This document shows positions 34,053-61,100 of a stretch of 64,000 nucleotides of DNA, one piece after another. The stretch is from the NCBI RefSeq assembly GCF_000182565.1, contig NW_015971556.1:186001-250000 (forward strand), given 5' to 3'. The notes below the pieces were generated by a model. The model had not been told where the DNA came from and did not search any database. It saw only the letters and a list, made by a program, of their open reading frames with translations. Numbering within the stretch: position 1 is the first letter of the stretch; each line of letters begins with the position of its first letter. The DNA is from Spizellomyces punctatus DAOM BR117. Its lineage: Eukaryota > Chytridiomycota > Chytridiomycetes > Spizellomycetales > Spizellomycetaceae. Position numbers and translations under genes: made by a program.

Positions 34053-35368
34053 ATGACCAGAGTAACCAAAATGGCGCGGAAGACGCACGAAGAGGCGTCC
34101 GGGTTTGTGGTGACACCTCTTTTGCCAAAGTCCAACTCGACAGGGGAGCAGCCGGATAGTACTAAGAAGCGGAAACGTAAGGAGGAAGTCGTGGCTGCTC
34201 CTACAGAGGCGAAAAAACACAAGCACGCCGAAAAGTCTTCCAAGGAGGAAAAGAAAAAGCGAAAGGAAAAAAAATCTCCGGAGGGAACGAGTGACGGTCC
34301 GAAGGTAGCGGATAGTACAGAAGTCAGCGAAAAGACGCCCAAGCCGAATAAGAAGAGAAAAGGAGAGGACAATAGCCCTGCGGTTGGTGAGAGACAGACA
34401 GACAACACTCCAGCTGCTCCATCTACAGGTGGATCCGCTCAAAAGAAAAAGAAGATGCGCCATCGATCAAAAGCTGAGTCGACACAGGGTGCCGGTACAT
34501 CTGGGGGAAAGCGGGGTAAGGGAAAAGTAGCCGAGGATGGTCTATCAAAGTATGGTTAGTATCCGTACATACCTATGAGGCCGACCGAGAGCAGCCGACT
34601 AAATGGTGGGTGGTTTTTAGAGAGGGAAGCCCTCAGAAGACGAACAAGGAGAGAAGCAATGAGGGAGAAGAAAATGGTATGCCAGTAACGATCTTTATTC
34701 TTATGAAGACACCCTGATATCGATTGCTTTCAAGGTCTGCTACCTTTGCAGAAGCATGGGGCACTCCATAAAATTCTGTCCGAAAGCTACGGAACAAGAT
34801 AAACAAGCCGTATCCGGAATTTGTTACAAGTGCGGTTCTACTGCCCACAAATCATCAGAATGCAAAAAAATGGTGGATCCTAGTAAGTGTCCTTATACAA
34901 TAGCTAATTTACTCATACAATTACACACCAGGACAATTTAATCATGTTTGGCGGTCACCTTATTTTAGAGAACCCATATCCTTTTGCGCACTGTTTTGTT
35001 TGCGATCAGCAAGGCCACTTGGCAAGTTTATGCCCAAAAAATGAACGGGGTCTGTATCCGAACGGAGGCGGTTGCAAATACTGTGGTTCAGTTAGGCACT
35101 TGGCGAGGGACTGTAAGCCTGCGTTGCAGGGTACGTAAATGGTTGTTGTGCATGGTACATGAATCACAGGCTTAACTCAATCTCTGTCCGGGTATCGTTT
35201 CTAGAAGCTGGGATTACCACGCTAGGCACCATCGATCTCAAGCAAGGTGGTGACGATGACGATGTGTTCGTAGCGCTACATAAGATGCAAGGTGACAAAG
35301 AAAAGGCGGCTGAGACTACAAAGCCAGGTACTAGGAAGTCTTCAAAGAAAAAGGTCGTAAAATTCTAG
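34053..35368 (+). CDS. ZCCHC9: ZCCHC9-like zinc-knuckle protein
   Basis: Five exons (34053-34554, 34621-34676, 34735-34882, 34969-35130, 35205-35368) give 343 residues. The N-terminal half is very Lys/Glu-rich with several nuclear-localisation-like clusters (KKRKRKEE, KKKRKEKK). Four CCHC knuckles follow: CYLCRSMGHSIKFC, CYKCGSTAHKSSEC, CFVCDQQGHLASLC and CKYCGSVRHLARDC. Between knuckles 3 and 4 is GLYPNGGG, the spacing typical of ZCCHC9. Family members bind RNA in the nucleolus and are linked to rRNA processing. An in-frame second ATG at 34071 could be used instead. The Fanzor element sits 120 bp downstream. Confidence 0.9.
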
Positions 35369-35490
35369 GTTAGTGGTGCCGGTATGGGAGAGGAGCTTGC
35401 TGAGCTGTTGAAGTTAGTGATCGATTTAATCATGCATTTACGGGTAGTTTGAGGTAGCTTTTGACTGATAATGATAATTTATGAGAGTTG

Positions 35491-35517
35491 CATAGTGCGG
35501 AGCCGATGGGTATTGGC
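35491..35517 (+). repeat. Terminal inverted repeat, left
   Basis: 27 bp opening CATAGTGCGGAGCC; exact reverse complement of 37608-37634. Confidence 0.93.
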
Positions 35518-35587
35518 GGCACCAGGGATTGAACCGCGCGACAACCGGTTCGGAAAACCTAATCTAACCAATCTACGTTCTACGCTA
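35518..35587 (-). ncRNA. Candidate guide-RNA (omega RNA/fRNA) region with tRNA-like boxes
   Basis: The stretch between the Fanzor stop codon and the left inverted repeat, read on the minus strand, has a box-B-like GGTTCAATCCC (35525-35535) and a weak box-A-like TAGCGTAGAACG (35576-35587) overlapping the stop codon. In characterised TnpB/Fanzor systems the guide RNA overlaps or follows the 3' end of the ORF and runs out through the element end into flanking DNA, so this is where it should be. The tRNA resemblance is partial: acceptor and T stems do not pair well. Transcription by Pol III is speculation. Confidence 0.4.
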
Positions 35588-37472
35588 CGGCTGGAACACT
35601 CCTCCTGCTGAACACTTCTGGTCTACAGTGCCCATCCAACATTGATCTCACAATCATTAGCATGTTGCAGGTTGACAGCGTATCTCGATTCCAGTAGCGC
35701 ATTCCCGATGTCCAGGCTTGCTGCAAACAGTTAGGGTTGGTACAACCCAGCAATCCGTGGACTTTTTCAACCTTGCCTTCTCGTCGTCGATAAGGTCTTG
35801 AATGAGCTCGTGTTTTGAAGCCTTTTTTGAGGAAGTCGTTGGATGAGGCCAAACAGCGAGGGCAAACAGATGAGGTCTTGTACTCGTCGAGAAGGAAGCA
35901 GTTGATCCTGTTCCGCTTAAAGAGGGTGCGCCAACCTTTCGTCTTTGATGAGATCTGAAATCTCGCAGTTCGACCGGCGTCGCTCCAATCACCCATCACA
36001 ATGGTGAAGTTTTCACCGTACTTGTTGTGCAAGTTGGATATGAGGTTCGATTCGCTCTTCTGACGGTTTATAGATGCATGCCATTTCCATCGAGTATGAG
36101 CAGGGTGGGCATAGAATTCCTTGCGACGATCCCAATCAGCGCGGCGAACGAGAAGGTAACGCATGAAGTCTATGAGGTTCATCGTCTTGTGGCTTGAAAT
36201 ACGTGATTCTATGAGGTCAATACCGCCGGCTTTCATTGCTTCCCGCTCCCTTGCAAATCGCCGGCTGCCTGTCTCCATGGCTCGCTGGTTTGCGGTGTAG
36301 CGAAACGTTGTACCATTGCTGTCTTGGCAGTAGAGAAGATCGCGCTTGTTTGGGTCAATAACGACAAAGTTCTCTTGACAAGCAGATAAGTTGTTTTCCA
36401 CATAAAGCGCTTTAACCTCTGCCTCCATCGTGTTTGCTGACTTTTTCCCTCCGCTGCGCTTTCCATACTTGTCTGCTTCTGGGTGCTTTAAGTATACAGA
36501 CACCGAGGTTCCGTCCGTCGTGATCGAGCCTTCAAACCACATTCTACGACGAGATCTAAAAGCCTTGTTCTGCAGATTACAGACGCGCAACCATAAATCG
36601 ACCTTCTCTACGGCTTCTGCTTCTTGGCGGGTGATGCAGAGGATGTGGGCGTAGAGAATGACCGTGTCGATGCGAATATGGGACTGAATCAGAGACCGAC
36701 GAAGAGGGATTGCACTGAACCGACGGAAGCCATGTCGTTCATACAGCCCAGAGAGTTTGCAGTATGCAGGAAAGAAAGCGAGAGGGTCTACAGCAACCGA
36801 ATATGCGAGCTGCTGGTCAGAAAGGGGAATGAAGGACCACATCTCTTCTAGAAGTTCACTCTCTTTAGCAGTCAAGTCATCAAGTGACTCGGGCACAATA
36901 TCAAAAAGGAAAATTGACTTCAAGTAGCGTAGCCGAGCAAAGAAAGCTTTCCGCGCTTCACTCTTTGGAGGCCCTTTCCGTCCCTTCACGTCGAGCCGCA
37001 GATTGATATACCGAAGGAGCATCTGCATGAAATGCTCTTGAACGTTGACTTTCAGGTTCGTCATCATACTCACTGTCAGGTAATTGACTGATTGCTGCTC
37101 GCCTCGTAGATTTGGGTGAACAAAGCCGACGATTTGGCAGTACCGTTGAACATATGGCAGCAAACAATCCCGCCATGCCTTCTTTGCTTCCTTTCTTGGA
37201 TGCCAAGCCTCCCCCTTGTTGAGAAGGTAGAGAATCGCTTCGATGGTCTCCTCATTCACGGTGAAGGATGGTGCAGATAGGGTGTAGAATTTGAGAGCGT
37301 GGGAAGCGTGGGAAGCGAGTTGATGGATGATGGCGATGTAATCTAGAAGACGCTGCCGGTAGGTCTCATTAGGCAAGAAAGCCTTTGCAAAGGACGTCTT
37401 GTTGCAGGTATGTAAGGTGGGTTTGTCGAGTTTTTCGAGCCTTTCGAGCTTTTGCTTTTTCTTTGGCGGCAT
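35580..37472 (-). CDS. Fanzor: eukaryotic TnpB-like RNA-guided endonuclease
   Basis: An intact intronless ORF of 630 residues. A basic start (PPKKKQK) looks like a nuclear localisation signal. The C-terminal half carries a split RuvC nuclease: RuvC-I at VVIDPNKRDLL (Asp373), GDWSDAG (494-500), LDEYKTS with Glu530 just before a zinc ribbon (CPRC 537-540 and CTNPNC 577-582), and RuvC-III in YWNRD (Asp597). A glutamate directly ahead of the zinc ribbon is the rearranged catalytic arrangement described for Fanzors. The N-terminal 300 residues would bind guide RNA and target DNA. Fanzors cut DNA next to a short motif under guidance of an RNA made from their own element. All expected key residues are present, so the protein is probably active. 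Confidence 0.9.
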   Translation of the reverse strand: MPPKKKQKLERLEKLDKPTLHTCNKTSFAKAFLPNETYRQRLLDYIAIIHQLASHASHALKFYTLSAPSFTVNEETIEAILYLLNKGEAWHPRKEAKKAWRDCLLPYVQRYCQIVGFVHPNLRGEQQSVNYLTVSMMTNLKVNVQEHFMQMLLRYINLRLDVKGRKGPPKSEARKAFFARLRYLKSIFLFDIVPESLDDLTAKESELLEEMWSFIPLSDQQLAYSVAVDPLAFFPAYCKLSGLYERHGFRRFSAIPLRRSLIQSHIRIDTVILYAHILCITRQEAEAVEKVDLWLRVCNLQNKAFRSRRRMWFEGSITTDGTSVSVYLKHPEADKYGKRSGGKKSANTMEAEVKALYVENNLSACQENFVVIDPNKRDLLYCQDSNGTTFRYTANQRAMETGSRRFAREREAMKAGGIDLIESRISSHKTMNLIDFMRYLLVRRADWDRRKEFYAHPAHTRWKWHASINRQKSESNLISNLHNKYGENFTIVMGDWSDAGRTARFQISSKTKGWRTLFKRNRINCFLLDEYKTSSVCPRCLASSNDFLKKGFKTRAHSRPYRRREGKVEKVHGLLGCTNPNCLQQAWTSGMRYWNRDTLSTCNMLMIVRSMLDGHCRPEVFSRRSVPAVA

Positions 37473-37607
37473 GATGATATCTGAAAAAGATGAAAGCCTG
37501 GGAAAATGGGCACGACAACTTATATAGGATTTTTTGGATCAAACCATAGTTCATGAGTCTACATCGAGTAAAATTATGATTAAATTGGTTGGAATCTATG
37601 TACTAGT

Positions 37608-37634
37608 GCCAATACCCATCGGCTCCGCACTATG
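37608..37634 (-). repeat. Terminal inverted repeat, right
   Basis: 27 bp ending GGCTCCGCACTATG; exact reverse complement of 35491-35517. Confidence 0.93.
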
Positions 37635-37973
37635 TATCTACACATCGTGGTGATTTTCCAAGTTATCTGCATGCGCTGCCATTGGAGTCTTCTTGCTAGA
37701 TATTTGATGTTCAAGTAACTACGTCTGACGCTAGTGTCCTATATGTTAGTGCCCTAATGAGCTGAGATTCAACAGAAGAATATTGCCACAATTTGATATA
37801 ATGGGAAAGAATGGCCCGAACATATATTCTCGCTATTGATTCTGCCTTTTACTCGCAAAGACCAAGTTGACAGAGAAATTAGATATCTACATGCACGCAT
37901 ATCTGCAAAAAATATACTACAATAATGCAAACATCGGAGTTTCCAAATCATGAAATATTCGCCGTTTATATCC
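37635..37973. other. Intergenic region between the Fanzor element and the next gene
   Basis: AT-rich, no gene. Begins at the element's right border. Confidence 0.6.
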
Positions 37974-55120: not shown

Positions 55121-58100
55121 GTTTCAACAGTTGCCGATCTCGAGGAAATGTCGCCTGGTTGCAACAGCTTCACAAGGATTTTGTGGAACACGTGACAAAT
55201 CTCCCCGGCTGTCTGGACAACTTTGCGCTTGCTGAGATTGCAAAAGATGGCACGATTTCAAGTGCATTGAGTATCAAAGAATGCTTCAGCATCTGGGCAA
55301 GTCGACGATGGGATCCCACTGGTAGGATTGATTCGGTCACATTTTGCAGCGATCGCAATTCTTGTTGTCATGCAACTCGTAGGGTGTAGGACCCAGTTGG
55401 GTGTGGTTCGAAAGGCGCCAGTACGACACGGACGTTTGCCTGTATCATACTGGATGATGAAAAAGGAAGCGGAAACGAGCTCGATAGCCCATGAATCTTT
55501 CACTCACATCGTTGCTACAGTCGTGACTCTCAACTTTTTACACGGCGCAGTGACAATATACCAAAAAACCCGTCCCTTTTCATTTTTGACGATGCACGGA
55601 AATAAAGCAATCCGGTGTCGACGACGCCCTGACGCTGTGAATAAAAATCCAGGAAAACAGGAGCAATCCCCCGGATGGTTGGGCAAAAGTCCGTGTGTTG
55701 TCCGGACGGCACGTGATGGCCGATTACCAAATACGCGTCCCAAGGAAGATCTGGTGTCGCTGCACAACGGAATCCTCTAGCTAGATCAGCTATGCAGGAG
55801 GAGAAGAGGGTCTTCCCTTTGGAAGTTGAAGGGGAAGACAATGCCGATGAAAATCTGCCATACATTAGACTGCGATATGCAGCAAATACTTTGGCCTTTG
55901 ATTTCGTATGTGACACCTCCCTTTGAAAACACATAACAAATCTCTTCATTTTTATTCATCGTAGACCTATGCAAATTGCTCGCAATTTGAGCCTTCATGG
56001 AGATATCTGTTGGCGTACTTGGAATCATACGAACCTAGCTTGCGGTCCTTCGCATTGCAGTGCATCGGCATGGCGTCAAAGTCCATATCACGGACCTTGA
56101 TATCATCAGAACTACGGCAGAAGCTTGTGTCGATTTTGATCAAAATGGTGGCTGGAGACGAGGTACTTAGAATGCTGAAATATTTTCTCGGAGTATCGTA
56201 GCTTCTTGTTGCTTTTGTTCTGTCATGTAGCTAATGTGAAAGCGTGGCCCTAACAGGTCTGGCAGAATCGATGCTTAGCTGCGCGAATTCTGGGAGAATC
56301 GGTATCTGTAATGCTATCACACGACTTTCCTGCAAAGTTACGGAAGTTTGCTTTTCAAACCGTCCTCACACAGTTATCACGGGCTTTCCCCGCCGACTTA
56401 GATAGTGCCCTAAAACAAGATCCGACCATACTGGACAATTCGCACTATGTTCCACCACACCTATTTCGATGTAGGATCCATTTCTTACATGCCGCTGCCT
56501 ATTTTTTTGAATGCCCAGAGGCCTTGACCCCGGACGTCCTCGGATATGTGGATCGACTCATATCGTGCCTCCTCGGTCCGAAGGTTCACCATTATCTGCA
56601 GGCCGCGGCAATACATGCCATACATGCTCATTTGCCTGTGACGAATCGAAATAGAATCCGGGTGGAGAAACTTTTCCGAAAGCCGATAGTTGCGCTTTCT
56701 CAGGATTTTTTAACACCGGATGGTACAGAACCGGAGACTGGACAGCCACCGAAACAAGCGTTGCACCCCATCATTACAAAGGAGCTTGCCCTCTTCTGGG
56801 CAGTGTGGTATCAGAGACCAAAGGACTCGCAACTTGTCGCCATCGTACCAAATCCTGAACAGATGAGTCGAATGTTTGAGGGATATGCATTCCGAAGATG
56901 GCAGTGGTTGGTGGCGGAGAACTTTACTATTGCACAAGATTCTCAACCACATGCGCTAGACGTAGAGGCCAAACGGAACGCCTTGCGTAAAACTATAGAC
57001 TGGCCCCAAAGCAGAGCGGTGTCAGCGATGCTCAACGTCAAACTTTTTGCACCTTTAAAAACAATCACTGTAACAGATCCAGGTGGGTGAGGCCCTCAGG
57101 TAGCATTTGAATTAGCATCACGATCTTCAGGGGCGTTCCATAAGCTAATCTCTTGGTCAAGCCAGCGACAGCCCTCAGTCGATGGATAATGTCGAAGAGC
57201 CAGATGAGACGTTTGACATACCAGATCCTACGATGCTGACGTTCAGCATGAACCCACCGATTCTCCTTTTCAATCGTTATCCGTTCCAAAAGGACATATT
57301 TCTACAAAATAAGTCAGTTTCACACGACACCGCATTCCGCTTGCAGGTTGGACCTGCGCGGTATTTTCAAGCCTGGCCGACGATTGGAATACTCCCAAAA
57401 GGGGAATCCACAGTTGTTACCGTGCGATTTACCCCTTGCCCCCATATTGTACGGAAGAATCCGGAAGTTGCGGGCTTCATTCGCATCCGTACTGCTGACG
57501 GTTTACCGATGGAAAGGTAGGAACAAAGCTGCTTTTCCACCATCAGATTACCTAGCCACTCAACACCTCAATGTCAGGATCTCGTTGCGCGCGTATAATA
57601 TGCCGGCTGTCAAGGTTTACCCGCAGATACTCGACTTTGGGATGTGCCCTAAAGGGGACCACCGTGTGATGAATTTCACCATTGCCAACCTCCTGCCAAT
57701 CGACTGTCCAATAGTCATGCTGACGACTCCTTCCGCCAGCAGCTCGATGTTTCAGATATCACCCACCCAGACGGTCTTAATGCCGAAGGAGAGGAAATTA
57801 TTCCAGATAAAATTTTGCCCCACAATGGAAGGAGTTCTCCTGGACCAGTTGCTGTTAGTAGCTTTTGGGGGGGAAGTGTACCGGATACGTTTGGACGCAG
57901 TATGCGGTGAAGCATTGCATATATTGGATACCAAGCTGGATTTCGGCCCAACAGACATCTACTATAATGCTGTCGTCAAACGAGTGACCCTCAAAAACCG
58001 CGACAAGAAGCCACTTCCTGTCAGTTTTGAAGCAAGCACAGATGAGCTGAAGTTGAATAAGGATGTTCCCATCGTACTTGCACCCTACGAAGAAAAGCGA

Positions 58101-61100
58101 GTTGAGGTCGAATTTTTGTCTTCGATCACCGGGTCTCGCCAAGAATCGCTAACGTTTCAGGCTCCACATACACTTCCACATCCTATCGAAATCCTGGCAT
58201 TCTCTGGGCCGGCGATTTGGGTACCGGTGATGGAAAACATTATTTTTCCTTCAACTCCAACCTTTCAAGGCGTGTGTGTGCAGATCCCTTTGGTTAACCT
58301 AACCAATGCACTGTCACAATGCCTCATCACAGTCCCCGTTAGTTCGCCCTTCAACTTGCGGCTTGTTGATCCTGAGTTTGCCAATCGGAAACCGGCGAGC
58401 GGTGGCATACTCATTGAAGCGAAATCATACGAAGGACCGGACTGCATAGGGATGTCACTTACCATTGGGGCTCGTCTGACGGCCGTGATTGAGGTGGAGT
58501 TTCTGAGCACAACATGGGGATCATTCAAAACTCCTCTGTCTATTAGTATGGTGAAGCCGAGAAAGTGGCTAGTCACAACAATGATGCTTAATGCGATTGC
58601 TGTCAATGAACTATACCTTTCTCGTGAGAAGCCAACCGATTTCCTGCGACGGTTTCTTGCAAATCCCTCTGCAGAACCCGCGACCGGTCTTCTAGTCAAA
58701 CGAAACACGGATGCACGTTCAGATTCAGGCACGGCAACCAAAACATCGGAAATTTTTGAACTCGACCCTCCTCTTCAGACGGTATTTGGTGCACATTTAA
58801 GTGGGCGATTTGAAGATGTTTGCGAGTTTGTGACCATAACGAACATCACCAGTGTCACCCAAAGATATCACATTGTTCTATCAGAGCATTTTTATACTGA
58901 TATGCCGCTTGATGGGGAATTAGAAGGGATGGCGAGCATCGAAATTTTGTTGCGCCTTGACACAGCGTTCTTCGATGAAATTGCTGCCCCAGAAGCCCTT
59001 CACCACCTTGTCATTGGATCAATCACGATTTTTGATGAGAATGAAAAGAAGCTTGGGATGGTCAGTAGTGCATTGCATGGCATTATGGGCGATCTAGTAT
59101 CGTTCGAATGTAGAGAGTCAGTAGATACCATCAAATATCCCTCCCTAAAGGTCATGGAGAAGTTCACGAGAAGGTTCCTACTACGTAATAGAGCCCCCTT
59201 TGAAGTCGTATGGGACGGCCGCTTGATATCTGTTGGGCAGCAGGGCGTTGGACTTCAGGCAGACGGTCTGCCTATGATTGTTCCAACCAGCTCGAACGCC
59301 GCGGAATGGTGTCCCTTCAGTTTGTCAGTGCCCCGTGTCAGTTTAAAACCTTTTGAGTTTTACACCGTTGATATAACTTTCCAAGCTACTAGCTCTGGGG
59401 AGTATCGCGCGAAGCTTTTTATGGAATATGTGGATCCTGTAACTCATGTTGTAAATGCGGAACATCTGCGAGGGAAAACAAAGCGTAGTTTGCGCCAGCT
59501 CCTGTTTTATTGCTCCGTTGGAAATCGCGATTTGGCTCACAATCCGGAGATTTTGACGCATGGAGACACACCCATTGGCGAAAGCCAGTCATGTTCCTTG
59601 ACCTTGATCAACAATCAACCTTTAAACATGCAATTAGCACTTGGTGCGACATCGCCATTTAGGCTTCTGGATACGTGGGCGTCGCTGGGCAAGCAATCAA
59701 AGTGGGAACTTCCGGTCTTTTTCGAGCCGGTAAAAAGCAAGGCGTACAGCGACCTGATTACACTGTGCTTCGGAGGAGTAACACGTACTCTTTCTGTCCT
59801 TGGAACTGGCGGGAGGTCAGGACTGGAATCAAATCTAGCTCAACCCATACGAACGGATTATTTGGAACCTATGGTAAATGACGACGGGGATGAGCAACCG
59901 ATCATGCCAAGCGCATCAAATATCATTCGATTCGGATTTGTTGAGCTCGGCCACCCGAAAAACAAAATCTTTGTCCTGACCAATACTGGCACTTTTGACT
60001 ACGTCGTGAAGAATATTACGTTAAGCGAAGATCAGTGCCTAACCTGGAAATTCTTGGAAGACAGCGGGGGTGATAACAGTTCATCTGCACAGTCTGAGCC
60101 TTGGAGTGCTAATTTTGGATCTGAAAAGTTGGATGATATTGAAAATGACTGGGATGAAATAGATTATCGTGCACGAGAAACCGGCGGCACACCAAGTTCA
60201 AGGGCAGGGTTTGACCGTGGGTCGATCACTGCATCGTCTATAACGGCAGCCCCGCGTCGGCGTCGGTACAAGTCTATTTCACATTCAATGGTGCCTACGG
60301 GTTCTTCCAAGTTATTTCCTTTCCGCTTGCCTCCTTATCAGAAATGTGGTATTCTCCTCACGTTTGCAGGATTTGAAAAGGTATATAGTTGTCTGCCGTT
60401 TGTATCCAATACAATATCTGAGCGAAGTCGCATTAGGGTGAGCGTAACATTTCAATCAAAGTTGAAGTCGAGCGAAGCAGTGGCGAACCAGAAACATACA
60501 TGTTCTGGGTATCTGGAAATCTCCAACCAGCGCTTCAATTATGGGAGAAAAAGATTGAATATGGTGTCCGCGCCGTCCATGTTCGACATGCAAGTATTTT
60601 TCCTTCCCTTAACCTCCCCGATTTGTTATTAACGTAGGTATCTTATCACCACAGAAAGCAGAGATAAAGTTTACGAACACAGGTACAGTCCCACTACCAT
60701 GGAGCCTGACACAGGAAAGCACCAAATACATAGCAATAAAGAAGTTTGACCCGGCCCCACTTCCGAAGGATCTGAACAGCATACCGTCTCCCATATCATA
60801 TTTCCCCAACAATGGAAAGCTGCTACCAGGCTGCACCCAATCAGTTGACATTGCTTTTACCCCAAGTCTCGCTCAATATGAAGTCTTCAGCTACTTTACC
60901 CTCCGAACTGAGGATTTCGCAGAGGCTCCTATTATCGTACATGGTGTCGGTGCATCGTCTCGTCTCACGATAGACGTAGAAGAACTGGACTTCGGGGTAA
61001 TAAGAGTCGGAACAAATAAGGCCTTCAAGCTTAGCTTGCGAAATAAGGGTATTCTGCCCTTGAAGTATTTTGTAGAATGTTCCAACATCCAGTTTGCAGC

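Follow-up and report, generated by a model that had tools for sequence, protein, structure and literature searches.

A Fanzor open reading frame between identical 27-base inverted repeats raises the question of whether the locus is a recently moved and fully working element, and of how such an element moves. The frame lies in the window, by which we mean the whole stretch of 64,000 nucleotides from Spizellomyces punctatus DAOM BR117 that was analysed, on contig C20 of the 24.0-Mb assembly. The answer that we consider highly probable is that the element is a non-autonomous SPu-1 (SpuFz1 family, Fanzor1), which is moved in trans and restored by guided cutting.

The window element and its family

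Without its TA duplications the element spans 35495-37630, and its parts are collected in Table 1. The Fanzor1 frame runs from ATG to TAG through 630 uninterrupted, intronless codons. Its product matched SpuFz1 of PDB 8GKH with 1215 bits over residues 2-630, at 83.5% identity across 641 aligned columns. In SpuFz1 numbering, for which we followed the available text of PMC10432273, the catalytic residues D383, N385, E541 and D606 were all present, as were the conserved cysteines 548, 551, 586 and 591, which we assigned to the zinc ribbon. This confirmed the sequence-only reading of an intronless 630-residue Fanzor with all RuvC and zinc-ribbon residues. The same reading had proposed a likely functional RNA-guided nuclease, and the open frame with its full set of catalytic and zinc residues agrees with that proposal, so that the window copy is presumably active. 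Across the family, none of the 15 sequences aligned lacked D383, N385 or E541; D606 was present in 14, and the remaining one had a gap. A Pfam search of the window frame gave no significant domain with the library copy used, and PF26935 appears in the precomputed annotation of most database relatives. The public gene model (P0001) has 592 amino acids, and its splicing removes 38 residues, among them E541 and two of the zinc-ribbon cysteines. Elsewhere in the window (57348-60632) a large open reading frame encodes HYDIN/CFAP65-like Ig domains, a flagellar gene that is expected for a zoosporic fungus.

Table 1. Features of the element and their positions in the window
Feature	Position	Strand	Basis
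Whole element, SPu-1 / SpuFz1-type, with TA duplications	35493..37632	-	ends, TA on both sides, at least 39 other genomic places
Fanzor1 open reading frame, 630 aa	35580..37472	-	translation; match to SpuFz1 of PDB 8GKH
TATA-box-like CTATATAAGT	37518..37527	-	read from the sequence, function putative; about 50 nt 5' of the Fanzor ATG
Left-end inverted repeat, 30 nt, full length	37601..37630	-	identical in many siblings, few mismatches in others
CATA at left end, TA duplication plus conserved CA	37631..37634	-	equals published SpuFz1 target-adjacent motif (PMC10432273)
Right-end inverted repeat, 23-nt core alone	35495..35517	+	inner part of family repeat deleted
TA target-site duplication, right-end side	35493..35494	+	end comparison
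Guide-RNA (omegaRNA) scaffold, predicted, 66 nt	35493..35558	-	homology to 75-nt scaffold in available text of PMC10432273
Deletion junction inside stem 2, CC replacing CGGGTGCTAGT, net -9 nt	35518..35519	-	right-end comparison
Predicted 15-nt guide TGCAACTCTCATAAA in flanking DNA	35478..35492	-	position deduced from available text of PMC10432273

The sequence-only reading had proposed a genome search for sibling copies, and a search with the element returned 40 main places including the window, that is at least 39 siblings with 81-91% identity over at least 0.75 kb, a lower bound since the best 40 of 129 candidates were scored. Together with three loci found by end pattern, 43 loci were examined. 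A frame of at least 600 amino acids was present in 14 and absent from 29, many of the latter being partial. The frame of sibling L023 (C17:213599-215857) was 100% identical to 8GKH over 637 amino acids, and on this sequence identity SpuFz1 proper is L023.

The window element thus belongs to a known family, SPu-1, the prototype eukaryotic Fanzor family, and is one more annotated copy of a textbook case. According to the part of PMC3627910 available, Bao and Jurka described SPu-1 from the same species in 2013, with 17 full-length copies, nine of them with intact frames; like the window copy, the elements are about 2,100 bp long and have a single frame of about 630 amino acids, long terminal inverted repeats and TA duplications, whereas the right repeat of the window copy is 9 nt shorter. 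In the S. punctatus DAOM BR117 genome, Saito et al. (2023) counted 42 loci, 19 of them full-length, and demonstrated the SpuFz1 guide RNA, the target-adjacent motif (TAM) and RNA-guided double-strand cleavage biochemically, together with the structure (PMC10432273, available text). The window copy resembles SpuFz1 of that paper and of PDB 8GKH in its catalytic residues, CATA and scaffold layout. Its scaffold differs in length (66 nt vs 75 nt), a shift toward the engineered scaffold of the same authors, which was trimmed to 52 nt.

Terminal repeats and the guide-RNA end

The same 27 bases, CATAGTGCGGAGCCGATGGGTATTGGC, stood at both ends of the element (35491-35517 and 37608-37634), which is far beyond chance. 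With up to 3 mismatches, this pattern matched 39+33 times in the 24.0-Mb genome, and the reversed control gave 0 matches. The 27 bases are made up of the 23-nt family repeat (35495-35517 / 37608-37630), the TA target-site duplication and CA. Of these, CA is characteristic of the family at the Fanzor left end (37633-37634) alone, and at the right end it is there by chance. The perfect 27-bp repeats of the sequence-only reading are therefore real as identical letters but not as a repeat unit of that length. When inverted repeats of about 30 nt were looked for at both ends, the left end had 30 nt and the right end just the 23-nt core; the right-end repeat of the family is longer than that of the window copy.

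TA stood outside the repeat in all 30 left ends and all 31 right-end-type repeats examined. CATA was found in 27/30 left ends vs 2/28 right ends (the window copy, L009, and L028; Fisher p ~1e-10), the right-end count omitting L052 and L054, which were retrieved for carrying CATA, as well as an inverted left end in L026, and the left-end count including L050, which was retrieved through a CATA-bearing pattern. Both the left-end CA of the SpuFz1 element and CATA as its TAM are already published (PMC10432273, available text). The asymmetry of CATA would fit the demand of a nuclease rather than a transposase acting on near-equal repeats. L026 (C17:395632-401955) is a rearranged copy, in which an inverted left-end fragment adjoins the right end.

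The predicted fold of the window copy has stem 1 and a shortened stem 2 in a guide scaffold placed immediately before the flank. Among the 31 Fanzor-type scaffolds folded, 29 were 74-75 nt long, the window copy had 66 nt and L013 had 54 nt. Between CCTGGTG and GCCAATACCC, 29 other right ends carried 10-11 nt, nearly always CGGGTGCTAGT, where the window copy has CC (an extra match of this pattern in L022 lay elsewhere and was due to chance, and L013, L031 and L050 were unmatched). The 9-nt loss cut the right repeat of the window copy to its 23-nt core. The predicted fold kept stem 1 and, at the base of stem 2, six pairs. In the SpuFz1 structure, C40-G70 of stem 2 was uncontacted and non-essential, and trimming left activity (PMC10432273, available text). 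Since the loss falls in this dispensable tip, the guide made by the window copy is probably still usable, whereas the short right repeat may make the copy a poorer substrate for transposition. In L013 (C3:1635364-1637475) the loss in the stem-2 region is larger than in the window copy, and the right end is a natural 54-nt scaffold with CTGGTGCGGGTGTCCGCACTA at its end, near the engineered 52-nt SpuFz1 scaffold.

A guide of 14-15 nt follows the scaffold in SpuFz1 (PMC10432273, available text). CATA plus TGCAACTCTCATAAA is presumably the pre-insertion site of the window element. When the guides of 17 elements were compared as CATA plus 12 nt with at most 1 mismatch, no target was found within the 363 kb of partly self-overlapping sequence scanned.

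In the mechanism that we propose, a DDE transposase supplied in trans would carry the element from one TA site to another. The guide RNA bound by the Fanzor would come from the right end of the element, and its last 14-15 nt would be copied from the flank. Excision of the element would leave a restored site consisting of CATA and the guide sequence; the Fanzor would cut this emptied site, and repair from a sister copy would put the element back, presumably also in vivo. Left-end CATA would be kept because cutting of the emptied site depends on it. The SpuFz1 literature consulted, in the parts available, did not demonstrate that an element is retained better through its own SpuFz1, and Saito et al. 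termed its biological role unknown (PMC10432273, available text).

Age, constraint and competing readings

The nearest sibling of comparable length, among the best 40 of 129 candidates, was L014, with 90% identity over about 1.87 kb aligned. A tree of 30 copies placed the window copy with L014 (support 99/100), on an end branch of 0.054 changes per site vs a median of 0.065. Far younger copies were L011 and L012, with end branches of 0.006 and 0.014. The identical ends are no clock for the insertion because the 23-nt core was near-identical in all copies compared. With a 90% identical nearest sibling, an end branch near the median and a shortened right end, the recent mobility that had been read from the sequence was not supported.

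The dN/dS of the window copy against 13 siblings was 0.13-0.30, which places the Fanzor protein family under constraint; among the siblings the median was 0.15 and the range 0.11-0.28. The value for the window copy and L014, 0.30, was the highest of all pairs. Private changes of the window copy numbered 10 nonsynonymous and 1 synonymous, compared with 121:71 pooled over the 13 siblings (Fisher p = 0.10), in a count that favours conserved sites and serves for comparison between copies alone. L018 (10:2) and L019 (12:1) resembled the window copy in this respect. The private changes and the dN/dS with L014 hint at relaxed constraint on the window copy and speak against its full activity, but neither is significant. 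The annotated 592-residue splice model, which lacks E541 and two zinc-ribbon cysteines, also speaks against full activity.

It is hardly credible that the locus is a pristine and recently moved element, fully mobile and of a kind not known before. Its open frame and identical 27-base ends would suit such an element, and recently separated siblings such as L011 and L012 do exist in the family, but the family is published, the distance to L014 and the end branch are those given above, and the right end has lost 9 nt. We regard it as possible, but on the unlikely side, that the copy is an inert relic, immobilised by the right-end deletion, with a drifting Fanzor whose open frame reflects slow decay. 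The short right repeat, the 10:1 private changes and the top-ranking dN/dS with L014 would all fit this. Against it stand 630 codons without stop or frameshift, where 29 of the 43 loci (many partial) have no frame of at least 600 amino acids, the retention of all catalytic residues, the non-significance of the private-change excess, and the preservation of stem 1 and the basal stem-2 pairs.

A separate account concerns the guide RNA, which RNA polymerase III might transcribe from tRNA-like boxes at the right end instead of its being cut from the Fanzor transcript. The right end carries TAGCGTAGATTGG and GGTTCAATCCC, which we take to be A-like and B-like by the A- and B-box consensus, and 27 of 30 Fanzor-type loci had the B-box form GGTTCRANYCC close to the right end. 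In the Fanzor-less siblings, or ghosts, the form was found by eye in 0/6 right ends (GGTTTATTCCC, GGTTCATTCCC, GGTTCACTCCC), and a TATA-like sequence is present instead. The box bases moreover coincide in part with one strand of stem 1, and window positions 35300-37800 gave no Rfam match up to E = 10. We set the boxes aside, since they were absent from the six ghost right ends compared, and consider this origin of the guide very unlikely. A literature search on Fanzor with Pol III and tRNA returned nothing relevant.

Right-end types and the mobilising enzyme

The six ghost right ends compared (L057-L061 and one inside L011) had the core CTTTTCCGAACCGGTT(G/C)TCGCCGGTT in common with the Fanzor copies, and the sequences diverged beyond it. 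In every right-end type, the segment that follows CCTG paired with the final bases ahead of TA into a helix: GTGCGG/CCGCAC in the Fanzor type, GTGTATTG/CAATACAC in ghost type A, GTGTAG/CTACAC in ghost type B and GTGTGCG/CGCACAC in ghost type C, of which there was one example. As modelled by these helices, the four right-end types are one guide-RNA core with compensating changes in stem 2. In the genome, the A-type repeat pattern matched 4 places and the B-type repeat 66+43.

Covariation was scored in an alignment of 16 of the 37 folded scaffolds, in which L013 was misaligned in stem 2 and scored as a gap. All 8 basal pairs of stem 2 were formed where both letters exist, and three pairs were changed on both sides. 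The whole structure gave 14 compensated cells and a covariation score of 0.201, each reached by 0/500 shuffles, with 0-3 compensated cells in slid controls; these cells are sequences and not events, with roughly three independent changes behind them, in a structure derived from the same sequences. The 3 pairs changed on both sides (reached by 176/500 shuffles) and the 7 further pair types (470/500) were not exceptional. The region past stem-loop 1 has been suggested to be non-critical and perhaps unconstrained (PMC11423790, available text). The compensating changes between end types suggest that the basal stem-2 pairs are constrained nevertheless and maintained in nature.

Ghost Spu-1 elements were described in PMC10432273; as in the window family the guide-RNA core is common, whereas ghosts lack a Fanzor gene and have other end repeats. 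The available text of that paper gives one ghost repeat with seven differing positions, whereas we found three ghost end types, each with a compensated stem 2. The Fanzor1 elements of insect viruses (NAR 2023, PMC10711439, available text) also have terminal inverted repeat and target-site duplication inside the guide scaffold, in other hosts. Covariation between end types was found neither in the main text of PMC10711439 available nor in a literature search.

In ghost L057, the TATA-like TTTCTATATAAACCC was followed by a short frame (with a GT-AG intron in one reading) and then by the scaffold. The segment before TTTCTATATAAACCC matched the start region of the Fanzor elements L019, L023, L026 and L036 and of L050, in which, by eye, the matched segment is followed by a TATA-like sequence and then by the opening codons of the Fanzor. 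L011 (oriented ~1080-1720) likewise had a TATA-like start region, a short frame with a possible small intron and the scaffold, with the reading frame broken. Ghosts, judging from these two bodies, would be internal derivatives in which promoter and guide RNA have been retained. The L057 frame was considered as the start of a transposase and rejected, as its spliced 56-aa reading had no relative and the frame is broken in L011.

A TA duplication fits a Tc1/mariner enzyme, and the window family has such a duplication. The window element contains no transposase, as the sequence-only reading had noted, and Saito et al. report none within SPu-1 ends (PMC10432273, available text). DDE_3 (PF13358) matched two places in the genome, and 3 of 14 control genomes also matched. 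One place was an open 408-aa frame (C3:533518-533943, minus), the other a short match with an internal stop (C5:992487). PF03184 and PF01359 gave 0 places in the genome and likewise 0 in the controls, so that this result does not establish their absence.

Among 100 of 109 matches listed, type-B end repeats flanked the C3 frame at C3:530859-530883 and C3:534733-534757. The DDE_3 gene is faced by the tips of both and hence does not simply lie within one of these elements. The repeat at C3:534733-534757 has an adjacent scaffold core and is thus a ghost right end; for that at C3:530859-530883 no scaffold core was seen among 100 of 138 core matches listed. By our own post hoc estimate, which assumes even spacing of 109 repeats in 24.0 Mb, the chance of repeats flanking a gene within 0.8 kb and 2.6 kb is about 1 in ten thousand. 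The C3 frame (Tc1-type), known here from its profile match and the positions of the repeats, is only a lead to the SPu-1 mobilising enzyme. A homology search with L057 returned neither the C3 nor the C5 place in the best 40 of 209 candidates, which neither supports nor excludes the link. A promoter module at C5:995289, 2.7 kb from the second DDE_3 place, was not counted as a further link, since it also lies ahead of some Fanzor frames and may be an ordinary neighbour.

These observations can be joined in a wider proposal, which as it stands we consider improbable. The C3 Tc1-type transposase (~533.5 kb) would act in trans on SPu-1 and on every ghost type. Both this enzyme and stem 2 of the guide RNA would hold the tip of the terminal repeat in place, so that no end could change unless the RNA changed in compensation. 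One nuclease would then serve end lineages that run in parallel (Fanzor, A, B and C). Copies with a trimmed stem 2, such as the window copy and L013, would be sources of guides that move poorly.

The trimmed scaffolds of the window copy (66 nt) and L013 (54 nt) amount to a natural experiment that mirrors the engineered trimming of SpuFz1. If the transposase lead is true, the best-studied Fanzor would have its missing mobilising enzyme, and element retention by RNA-guided cutting would become testable.
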